From contig NZ_VIGB01000003.1 in NCBI RefSeq assembly GCF_006636205.1, positions 1,860,001 to 1,924,000 of the forward strand: a stretch of 64,000 nucleotides of DNA. The letters run 5' to 3'. The notes below the pieces were generated by a model, which did no database searches, was not told where the DNA came from, and saw nothing but the letters and a program-made list of their open reading frames with translations. The position numbers and the translations under genes are program-made. This DNA is from Kitasatospora acidiphila. GTDB taxonomy: Bacteria; Actinomycetota; Actinomycetes; Streptomycetales; Streptomycetaceae. Positions 57,679-61,517 of the stretch are shown piece by piece. Positions within the stretch are counted from its first letter, which is position 1. The number at the start of each line of letters is the position of its first letter.

Positions 57679-57710
57679 CATCCGGAGCGTGCGCGGGGAG
57701 TGCCGGAGGG
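57679..57710. repeat. Left copy of the 32-bp direct repeat
   Basis: The block CATCCGGAGCGTGCGCGGGG followed by AGTGCCGGAGGG is identical to 61229-61260, and 4 of the next 5 bases also match. It lies 50 bp from the stop of the last cassette gene. The ends TCCGG and CCGGA are inverted. Confidence 0.9.
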
Positions 57711-57760
57711 AGTGGCATCCGGTCGGCCGGGACCCCTGCTTTCGGGTTCCGCCCAGCCTC

Positions 57761-58051
57761 CTATCGGGGCTTCCGGTGGCGGCCGGCAGGCTTGCGCGGT
57801 TGCGGTGCTGGCATGGGAATCATCCCGTCACCCTTGATCCCGTGAAGGATGCGCTGGGCGGTGGGGTAGTCGTCGGCGACGGTGTGGGGCACCCACTCGA
57901 CCCCGTCCCAGCAGAGGATCAGCCGGGGCTCTGTCGGACGGACGTGGGTGGCCGCCAGCCCGTCCAGCATGACCGCTTTCAGCTCGCCGACCGGCCGCCG
58001 CATCGCGTCCCGCCGCGCTGCCCACTGTTCCAGCGGCTCGTCTTCGTCCAC
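57761..58051 (-). CDS. Small DUF6087-like protein of the graspetide cassette
   Basis: A 96-residue protein starting at GTG 58051 with GAGGAG upstream. It reads MDEDEPLEQWAARRDAMRRP, then RLILCWDGVEWVPHTVADDYPTAQ, and a basic tail ending RKPAGRHRKPR. DEPLxxWAARRDxxRRPVG and the WDG-W strand match my memory of DUF6087, which often lies beside ATP-grasp RiPP genes. It begins 37 bp after the methyltransferase stop, so it is the last gene of the operon. Function unknown; a regulatory or partner role is possible. Confidence 0.65.
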   Translation of the reverse strand: MDEDEPLEQWAARRDAMRRPVGELKAVMLDGLAATHVRPTEPRLILCWDGVEWVPHTVADDYPTAQRILHGIKGDGMIPMPAPQPRKPAGRHRKPR

Positions 58052-58088
58052 CGGGTGCTCCTCTCCTCGGGGTGGCCAGCGTAATGGC

Positions 58089-58866
58089 TCAGGGGCCGAG
58101 CGGTGGCGGAAGCTGGGGTCGGGCAAGCATGAAGGAGATCTGCCCGCCAAGGAACCGGCCGATGGCGGTGCCGTCCTCGCGCACGGTGAGCCGGGCCAGC
58201 TCGGAGGAGTACAACCAGCCGCACAGGGTGGCCAGGATGATTCCGCCGGGCCGGGTCTGCGATCCACTCGGGCGGGATCTCCAGCACGCCGCATGTCATG
58301 GTGATGCGGTCGTAGGGCGCGCCGTCCTTGTGCCCGAGCAAGCCGTTACCCACCACCAGGTTCGGCCCGTGCCCGCAGACCCCGAGGGCGTTCCGCGCCC
58401 GCAGGCTCACTTCCTGGTCCACTTCGACAGAGGTCACCAAGTCATCGCCGAGCCGGTGGCATAGGAGGGCGGTGGAGTATCCGGTGCCTGTTCCGATTTC
58501 CAATACCCGCTGACCGTCCACGACTTGGAGGTCCTCGTGCATTCGGACGACCAGGCTCGGCATGGTGCTGGAGGAAGTCGGGGCGCGTAGGATCTCCCCC
58601 CGGTAATCGCCCGGCACGATGGTGCCGGCGATTTGCGTCACCAGCGACTCGTCGGCGTAGCAGCGCTCCAACCAGCCATCGGTTCCCGGCATCACCGGCC
58701 GCCAAGCGGTCGGCACCGAGTCCCGAACCGGCTCGAAGAAACCACCCCTCAGGAACTCTTGACGCGGTACCGCCTCAACTGCCCGCCGCCACGGCTCAGT
58801 ACGCAGGTACCCGCCTGCGGCGAGATCGCCGGCGAGCCTCGTGCGCAGCTCGACGTCACTGGTCAT
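58089..58866 (-). pseudogene. PIMT-like methyltransferase of the graspetide system (TgmC-like), frameshifted
   Basis: About 258 residues when one extra C is removed. The protein is a protein-L-isoaspartate O-methyltransferase homologue: YADESLVTQIAGTIVPGDYR, then SSTMPSLVVRMHEDLQV, SAM motif I VLEIGTGTGYSTALLCHRLG and [20 protein letters not shown]. After EIPPEWIAD the frame must shift by one base near 58247 to read [20 protein letters not shown] and [19 protein letters not shown]. In graspetide clusters such enzymes methylate an Asp so that it closes to an aspartimide. ATG 58866 overlaps the ATP-grasp stop (ATGA). It is shorter than the TgmC enzymes I remember, so the C-terminal part is missing too. 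Confidence 0.75.
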
Positions 58867-59813
58867 CCCGTCTTCCTCTCCAGCAGATCCGCCATCGCCG
58901 CGACCATCGGCAGGCCGGTCTCCGGTTCCATCCAGGCCCATTGTCCGGACGGGTTGCACTCCAGGAACCACCATTGCCCACGCCGGTCGATCGCGAAGTC
59001 GAAAGCGCCGAACACCAACCCGAAGCGGTTCAGGTAGGCACGCGACTGCTTCTCCAGACCAACCGGCGGCAGCACCACCGAGTACCTCAGGCGACCGTAG
59101 TCGGTGCGCCAGTCCAACAGGTCGGAGTCGATGCGGACGTGGAACACCCGGTTGCCGATGACGGTCACCCGTACATCGGCGGCCTTGTCGATGCGCTGCT
59201 GGAACAGGTGGGCGGTGCCGACCACGGAATCGTCGATCTCGTCGGCCGCCACGTCCAGGACCTCGACTGTGCAGGACACGCCGTCGATGCGGTAGAGCGG
59301 GGTGGAGAGCGGCTTATAGATCACCGGCCCGTGGCGCTTGGTGAAGGCCCGTGCGGCGCCGGGGTCGGAGGTGATCAGGGTCGGGGGAAGCTGGAAGCCG
59401 CAGGCGGCGGCGACAGCCAGGCCGGAGGGCTTGAACTCGGCGTCGCCGATCCGGTGGGGGTGGTTGACGTACAGGCAGCCCGGCAGGGATGCCACGACCC
59501 CGCCGAGGCCGTACCGGGCTTGGGTGATGGCGAAGCGGGCGTTCTGCTCGTCCAGGTGCGGGAAGGTGAAGCCGGAGGGCCGCCGGTAGTACAGGGATCG
59601 CACATTGGCGAGGTCAGCCGTGCGGGTCGGGGTGCTCAGCGTGCCCTTGATGCCGTGAGGCGTGATGGTGGCCGCGAACGACAAGGTGGCCGGGAAGTCC
59701 CCGGAGTCGAACCGCACGACCGGGACGCCCCGGCCGTGCAGTTCGTCGATCACCAGGTCGGTCGTGGGGTCATCCAGGTTGGTGACGACCAGAACCGGAC
59801 CTGGGTTGGTCAC
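58863..59813 (-). CDS. ATP-grasp RiPP maturase (TgmB-like, graspetide ligase)
   Basis: A 316-residue ATP-grasp ligase that forms ester or amide side-chain crosslinks in a precursor peptide. The N-terminal domain (VLVVTNLDDPTTDLVIDELHG, VVRFDSGDFP) is typical of TgmB/MvdD-like enzymes. The ATP-binding Lys is in GPVIYKPLSTPLY, the conserved LFQQRIDKAADVRVTVIG follows, and the metal and ATP site ends with FDFAIDRRGQWWFLECNPSG and QWAWMEPETGLPM. The GTG start at 59813 overlaps the TGA of the precursor gene (GTGA). It is followed by the methyltransferase (ATGA overlap). Target peptide: the adjacent 41-residue gene. Confidence 0.88.
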   Translation of the reverse strand: MTNPGPVLVVTNLDDPTTDLVIDELHGRGVPVVRFDSGDFPATLSFAATITPHGIKGTLSTPTRTADLANVRSLYYRRPSGFTFPHLDEQNARFAITQARYGLGGVVASLPGCLYVNHPHRIGDAEFKPSGLAVAAACGFQLPPTLITSDPGAARAFTKRHGPVIYKPLSTPLYRIDGVSCTVEVLDVAADEIDDSVVGTAHLFQQRIDKAADVRVTVIGNRVFHVRIDSDLLDWRTDYGRLRYSVVLPPVGLEKQSRAYLNRFGLVFGAFDFAIDRRGQWWFLECNPSGQWAWMEPETGLPMVAAMADLLERKTG

Positions 59814-59935
59814 TGGTCGCTGTCGTTCCCGGTGTCCTGGTCGCCGCCGCCGGAGCCGCCGGGCCCGGAGCCGTCAGACGGATTGCCGGTGTTGGTGGCC
59901 GGGTTGGTGCCGGTGCTGGTGCCATGGCCAGGCAC
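59810..59935 (-). CDS. Graspetide precursor candidate, 41 residues, leader missing
   Basis: A 41-residue peptide starting at GTG 59935 with AGGGG 6 nt upstream. It begins MPGHGTSTGTNPATNTG and ends GGDQDTGNDSDQ. Thr 6, 8, 10, 14 and 16 could donate hydroxyls and Asp 21, 32, 34, 38 and 40 could accept. Asp21-Gly22 is an aspartimide-prone pair. The text resembles the core end of TgmA-type precursors (remembered KHGT start and DxD-rich end), which normally carry a leader of some 40-60 residues. Here the frame has no further start before the stop at 60041-60043, so the leader is absent or encoded elsewhere. Stop overlaps the maturase start (GTGA). Confidence 0.75.
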   Translation of the reverse strand: MPGHGTSTGTNPATNTGNPSDGSGPGGSGGGDQDTGNDSDQ

Positions 59936-59955
59936 TTTGTGCCCCTGGCATGGAG

Positions 59956-61176
59956 TCAGGCAGCCACCCCGGTTGCGGTCGCCAGCTTCCGGGCTTGAGC
60001 CCTGGTGGACGCTGGTCCGGCCAGCAGGCCGCGGACCATCTCATGGGTCTCGCGGTTCCATCGCGCGGTCTCGGGCGCGGTCTTCACAGCGGCACTCAAC
60101 AGGCTGGCGACCTGGTCGTGTTCGCTGCGGAGGGCGTGAGCCCGGGCAACCTCGATCAGGTGCCGGGCTCGGCACGGACGGGCGGGCACCGCCTCGGGGG
60201 AGACGCGGTCGGCCCACCGCAGAGCCGTGCCGGCTTGCCTCAGCTCCACGGCAACTGTCACACCGTGCAACGGAATCACCCGGGCAGACCCGGAGGTGGG
60301 CGAGTGCCAGTACTCTGCGGGCAAGGTTCGCGCGGTAGCTTCGGCTCGATCGAACCATCCCCACGCGCTCCCGGCCTCACCAGCGGCAGCGTGCGTGATC
60401 GCAGCATGGAAGGCCATGTCCGCCCATGCCCGCGCCAAAGCCGCCGAATCGCCCTTGACCGGGCCCAGCAATCGGAGCGCTTCCTCAGTGAGCGTCTGGG
60501 CACTGTCCCACTGACCGGATTTGCGGAACGCCTCGACGAGGAACCAGCAGGCTTGACCCACGGCTGCCAGATCGCCGGAGGCGCGGGCAGTGGCAAGAGA
60601 GCGTTCAGCGACCCGCCAGACCAAGTTGCCGTCTCCCTGGTAGGCCGCGAACATCTGTGTGAGGTTCAACGCGCTGGCATACATGGCCTCAGCACGGCGC
60701 CGATCCGAGCACTCCGGGTGGGACGCGGCCGTTGATGCCGCCATCACAAGGCTCGGCAGCAGCTCGGCCAGAGCCGTTCGGTGGTTGCCGGACGCATCCC
60801 GGGCTCGCCAAGCAGCGGACAGCTGAGCCGAGATGTGACCCGAATCGGGAACTGGCCCTGCTACCAGCCCGAGTGGCGCGGTGTCGACCGCCCGCCGGAC
60901 CACGGACAGCGCCGGGTGCTCCGTCCCGGAGAACAGGGCGCGAGGCAGTGACACATCCCCGGTCAGCTGCGACAGATCGTCAATTCCCAAGTGCTCAGCA
61001 AGCTTGATCAGGAGGGGCAGCCGGGGCGGGAGGAGACGGCCGTTCTCAACAGCCTTCAGCCAGCTCTCCGACCGCCCCACCAGCCCTGCGAGCGCCGCAC
61101 GGGACTTGCCGGCACGTTCACGAAACAGCTTGATGCGCATCCCTACGGGTAGCGCCGGATCAAGAGCCATCGCCAT
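59956..61176 (-). CDS. XRE family regulator with TPR region, head of the graspetide operon
   Basis: A 406-residue regulator. The HTH is [20 protein letters not shown], then [20 protein letters not shown]. After it is a long helical TPR-like region (for example [20 protein letters not shown] and [20 protein letters not shown]) likely to bind a signal peptide or protein. It ends 20 nt before the precursor gene and shares its direction, so it is the first gene of the operon and probably regulates it. The TPR region could sense the mature peptide, which is inference. Confidence 0.82.
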
Positions 61177-61228: not shown

Positions 61229-61260
61229 CATCCGGAGCGTGCGCGGGGAGTGCCGGAGGG
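61229..61260. repeat. Right copy of the 32-bp direct repeat
   Basis: Identical to 57679-57710 and in the same orientation, 52 bp upstream of the regulator start. The pair encloses the five-gene graspetide cassette and nothing else. The 61177-61517 interval contains no gene otherwise. Confidence 0.9.
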
Positions 61261-61517
61261 GGTGGTGGGGGGCGGTCGTCGGGCGGGGCTGTCGTGGCCG
61301 GTGGGCCTACCGGGTGAAACGGGGCCGGCGCTGGATGGGGAGGAACGCTGGCACTCCCTTCTTGTCGGACTGGTGTCAACTTCGCGAGGGTTCGGAGTTG
61401 GAGCTATCGGATCCGCCGGGCCGATCCCGTAGCCTGACCCGCGTCATCGGACACACACGCTCCGTGCCCGACCGAGCAGTCCGCACGGAGCATCCCCCTT
61501 CTCTGCCAGGAGCCGAC

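Follow-up and report, generated by a model that had tools for sequence, protein, structure and literature searches.

A group-13 graspetide operon of Kitasatospora acidiphila that has probably lost its precursor leader by recent deletion

Group-13 graspetides (graspimiditides) such as fuscimiditide, amycolimiditide, albusimiditide and SsfA are specified by operons in which a precursor of family TIGR04186, an ATP-grasp ligase of family TIGR04187 and a PIMT-type methyltransferase of family TIGR04188 follow one another. For the ligase ThfB it has been reported that the core alone pulls down, yet that no modification takes place without the leader, and truncations of that leader placed the recognition sequence around RPFG; the methyltransferase ThfM, in the same report, acts leader-free on the crosslinked core and not on the linear peptide (PMC13003496). 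A WXXXGXP motif has been described for graspetide PIMT-type methyltransferases (PMC13001092), and their C-terminal domain has been proposed to serve in substrate recognition (PMC13001092, PMC10787088). In the titles and abstract openings of the graspetide and graspimiditide literature searched, no report of a natural leaderless graspetide precursor was found.

The window, meaning the whole stretch of 64,000 nucleotides of K. acidiphila DNA that was analysed, carries five minus-strand genes from 61176 down to 57761, with the GTGA and ATGA overlaps that an earlier note on this DNA had described. Relatives of TIGR04186, TIGR04187 and TIGR04188 are all present, in agreement with the assignment to aspartimide-forming graspetide operons made there. 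The regulator, the 41-residue frame, the ATP-grasp gene and the DUF6087 gene were correctly recognised in that note, whereas the methyltransferase, listed there as an ordinary member of the set, is frameshifted and has lost its 3' third. Judged by its genes, the locus can be classed as a group-13 graspetide (graspimiditide) operon of a Kitasatospora, but as a damaged one. Its features are as follows.

59956 to 61176, minus strand: XRE/TPR regulator, 406 aa, intact (PF13560, 47 bits)
59936 to 59955, minus strand: 3' flank of the XRE gene; CAGGGGCACAAA at 59947-59936 is the present SD-like site of the 41-aa ORF
59810 to 59935, minus strand: leaderless tgmA remnant, core only, 41 codons, GTG start (partial TIGR04186 match)
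58863 to 59813, minus strand: ATP-grasp ligase (graspetide synthetase), 316 aa, reading frame intact (TIGR04187, 432 bits)
58089 to 58866, minus strand: remnant of a PIMT-type methyltransferase gene with a frameshift near 58260; it ends in a stop at 58091-58089 and lacks about 117 C-terminal residues
57761 to 58051, minus strand: DUF6087 protein (PF19565, 101.9 bits)
57679 to 57715, plus strand: 37-bp direct repeat, left copy
61229 to 61265, plus strand: 37-bp direct repeat, right copy, 36/37 identical

Between the upstream stop and its GTG, the 41-residue frame contains none of the start codons ATG, GTG and TTG, as had been noted before. An alignment to TIGR04186-type precursors, which the earlier note had suggested, shows that the peptide corresponds to the C-terminal part of the model only: in the profile search its residues cover positions 44-72 of the 72 and score 21.6 bits, where the cut-off is 25, and leader plus core over the full TIGR04186 length are not found in the window precursor. 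The same 41 residues form the C-terminus of the leader-bearing precursors of Streptomyces verrucosisporus CPB1-1 (L075) and Streptomyces sp. CNQ085 (L129), two of the 61 loci, out of 80 scan loci, in which the searched motif was found. In both, MPGHG is preceded by GQVME and its ATG lies within the gene, and in all ten relatives compared the codon aligned to the GTG of the window is an internal ATG, the usual leader in relatives reading MFAHSDRLPTGTPLP..PWGLRRMAPYP..GQVME. Related genomes, of other species rather than other strains, hence show 59810-59935 to be the end of a longer tgmA, a relationship that the earlier note had named as speaking against a genuinely leaderless precursor.

The region in front of the GTG was compared with XRE homologues, which were found at 11 places in 10 other Kitasatospora genomes and align from residue 1-5 to 406 with 65-80% identity. 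That the joint stems from a truncation of the XRE gene was ruled out, since the C-terminus in the window ends as in the 10 homologues compared (of the 11 places). Behind the XRE stop codon, the window has eight bases, followed by CAGGGGCACAAA and by the core, GTGCCTGGCCATGGC, while in genome G010 the stop codon of the XRE homologue (80% identity) is followed by eight bases and then CAGGGGCACAAACTGTGCCTCT. The 12-mer CAGGGGCACAAA therefore stands at the identical offset of 8 nt after the stop in G010, and 11 of its 12 bases recur in G008, whereas the eight bases between stop and 12-mer are not conserved. By this comparison, the 12 bases that lead up to the GTG, with the AGGGG that looks like a ribosome site among them, are the 3' flank of the XRE gene, and the shared 12-mer at the same offset implies that a deletion created both the ribosome-site-like element and the start of the 41-codon ORF. 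TGCC is common to both sides of the joint, which lies in or beside it, and the GTG falls inside TGCC. By eye, a GGGGCAcAgACTgTGCCcC-like element follows the XRE stop codon in nine of the ten homologues L040-L049; it is possibly an operator for the next gene. Against shuffled sequences, at most 1 of 200 shuffles reached the value of the palindrome in just 2 of the 10 homologues, and 63 of 200 did so for the window. The palindrome was set aside as statistical proof because it is weak singly in most homologues, and the 12-mer at its identical offset was taken as evidence instead.

The methyltransferase carries damage of its own. TIGR04188 (363 positions) is matched at 1-193 in one frame and at 193-247 in another, positions 248-363 being unmatched. 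A nucleotide alignment that includes K. griseola and three Streptomyces shows that two bases are missing from the window near 58260 and that the 3' third is lost, the stop lying just ahead of the DUF6087 gene. WXXXGXP is present in the tails of intact relatives (e.g., L051 and L054), and the part absent here would contain this motif together with the proposed substrate-recognition domain, so that the window locus does not encode a PIMT-type methyltransferase with both. Among 84 loci including the window (L081 and L137 in this set being the same K. griseola locus), 70 have a single full-length methyltransferase frame; the other 14 have a split or truncated one or no adjacent match. A stretch similar to DUF6087 lies 3' of the methyltransferase match in 17 of the 83 other loci, and no mention of DUF6087 was found in the graspetide literature searched.

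The ATP-grasp gene, on the other hand, fully qualifies for its family, with 432 bits against a cut-off of 350 over profile positions 1-312 of 312. Relaxed selection, which would have been a further sign of decay, was not seen in it: dN/dS is 0.16-0.22 against K. griseola and three Streptomyces, compared with 0.18-0.23 among four Streptomyces pairs, and over 271 codons the window branch has 17 silent and 8 replacing changes (16 and 15 for K. griseola). Hence either the damage to the operon is very recent or the ligase is still of some use.

When GTDB genomes were scanned with the ATP-grasp protein of the window, 99 relatives emerged, and the loci of the best 80 were searched with a precursor model built in this analysis. 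Leader and core were found in 79 of these 80, the leader of L053 being cut by a contig edge and the core of L068 frameshifted, and the exception, L081 from Kitasatospora griseola, has no detected precursor. Among the 29 other Kitasatospora ATP-grasp loci in the best matches listed, 22 have a leader-bearing precursor of the TIGR04186 family, six lack a clear match to that family and K. griseola again has none. As a conserved variant, a leaderless core thus occurs in none of the 80 scan loci (best 80 of 99) and in none of the 29 best-matching Kitasatospora loci; the loci of both sets were picked out through their ATP-grasp gene, and a bare core without one would escape them. Apparent frameshifts in the core, ATP-grasp or methyltransferase gene were observed in other Streptomyces tgm operons (L068, L126, L127, L129, L085, L059, L080 and L114), and decay of tgm-type operons, or else sequencing error, seems to be common.

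The earlier note had also asked whether a full-length precursor with the usual leader exists elsewhere in the genome, and one does. A second operon in the same 8.58-Mb genome, at C3:4609552, encodes a 96-residue precursor that matches TIGR04186 positions 1-72 with 83 bits, followed by an ATP-grasp protein above the cut-off, 48% identical to that of the window, and a methyltransferase with a full-length frame. When the genome was searched with the L075 precursor, solely the window core and the precursor of the second operon scored at E < 0.01. A displaced leader elsewhere in the genome was not detected, as the searches with TIGR04186 and with the L075 precursor otherwise gave weak matches only (E >= 0.19 and E >= 0.012, respectively).

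The whole operon is bracketed by the 37-bp direct repeat, with 3550 bp from start to start, and a 30-base part of this repeat occurs at two places only in the genome, even with up to three mismatches allowed. The repeat may mark the insertion of the 3.5-kb segment as a unit. An empty site for the whole operon was not found when both flanks were searched in 70 genomes of the genus; in the two genomes in which both flanks were matched at 79% or more, they are split between contigs (G066) or separated by about 4 Mb (G040).

Taken together, these observations are best explained, with a probability of about 0.88, by a recently damaged group-13 graspetide operon whose precursor leader was deleted and which is being pseudogenised, rather than by leader-independent modification. 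The deletion would have had one end at the boundary of leader and core and would have fused the tail of the upstream XRE gene to the precursor core, taking with it some 60-70 leader residues of tgmA as well as its own start and ribosome site; the short TGCC match would have been used at the joint, and the AGGGG before the GTG derives from the XRE 3' flank. The methyltransferase bears two further lesions, the frameshift and the loss of the C-terminal domain. The missing leader, the source of the 12 bases, the methyltransferase lesions and the second operon are direct observations; we infer the order of events as well as the loss of the original tgmA promoter. Most likely, the ATP-grasp ligase of the window makes no graspetide from the 41-residue core, because this substrate is without a leader, and the operon would then be non-functional. 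By analogy with ThfB and ThfM, the core would not be crosslinked, and such a methyltransferase, even in intact form, would be left without a substrate. The short peptide may nevertheless be translated, given the well-spaced SD-like site ahead of its GTG. Against decay speaks the unchanged core, which ends in frame with the GTGA overlap, and the main evidence against simple decay is the intact ATP-grasp gene without relaxed selection.

The earlier note had considered that the peptide is modified without a leader, that the leader was lost or that it is provided in trans, and only the loss has gained positive support. A working leaderless variant, in which the ligase modifies the 41-residue peptide as it stands, would fit the intact and normally constrained ATP-grasp gene, the correctly placed SD-like site and GTG and the unchanged core. 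It is nonetheless very improbable, considering that no leaderless core was met in the other loci (best 80 of 99 relatives and 29 best-matching Kitasatospora loci), that the operon also has a broken methyltransferase, that the start region derives from the flank of the XRE gene and that the related ThfB is reported to need its leader (PMC13003496). The precursor at C3:4609552 could in principle act as a source of leader in trans, and it is reported that RiPP enzymes can be made to act in vitro on leaderless cores by a leader supplied as a separate peptide (PMC13003496). However, the two ATP-grasp enzymes are just 48% identical, the two precursors differ in leader and core, and the leader of the second operon is joined to its own core; this explanation is very improbable too. 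There is likewise only a very slight chance that the cell still produces the bare core now placed behind the XRE gene and that the ATP-grasp ligase crosslinks it, leader-free or with a trans leader, in which case it would be a natural leader-free graspetide.

The deletions and the frameshift might also be products of an assembly or sequencing error, considering that a single assembly is the source and that the frameshift lies in a G+C-rich stretch, with the K. griseola frameshift 17 alignment columns off. This is unlikely to a high degree, as both lost stretches (the leader and the C-terminus of the methyltransferase) are large and cleanly joined, the sequence to the left of the leader joint agrees with what truly follows an XRE homologue, and the contig spans 8.3 Mb.

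As it stands, the locus matters little, being another decaying RiPP operon. It does offer a clear natural example of how a deletion can leave behind a short ORF that looks convincing, start codon and ribosome site included, and could be taken for a leaderless precursor; in genome mining such short precursors should be compared with relatives before a new mode of maturation is claimed.

Among the matches listed, the closest ATP-grasp (87%) belongs to Kitasatospora griseola JCM 3339 (L010, identical with L081 and part of L137), and this locus is decaying too: no precursor is present and the first 43 residues of the ATP-grasp protein are gone. Unlike in the window, the joint lies at ATP-grasp codon 44, where the inside of another gene is fused out of frame (L010 1019-2322). 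The fused gene perhaps encodes a helix-turn-helix regulator (HTH_31, 17.2 bits, under the cut-off of 27). The K. griseola methyltransferase is one base short 17 alignment columns upstream of the window lesion, a separate event, and its C-terminus, in contrast to that of the window, is still there in another frame. A programmed frameshift common to both was ruled out, since two bases are missing in one and one base in the other, at different positions. The K. griseola locus is a case of parallel deletion and decay in the closest relative among the matches listed, and it speaks for decay of the K. acidiphila operon as well.

The two Streptomyces operons that share the core have kept the leader. 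That of S. verrucosisporus CPB1-1 has full-length ligase and methyltransferase frames, unlike the window operon with its broken methyltransferase (the length in L075 stems from a crude longest-ORF rule, the family-wide counts from the separate 84-locus comparison), whereas in Streptomyces sp. CNQ085 the ligase and methyltransferase frames are both broken. Measured against the described group-13 graspetides, the K. acidiphila operon has the same order of precursor, ATP-grasp and PIMT-type methyltransferase and a similar core, Thr-rich, then Asp-rich, with Asp-Gly in between; it differs from them in that its precursor has no leader and its methyltransferase is frameshifted and without the C-terminal domain.
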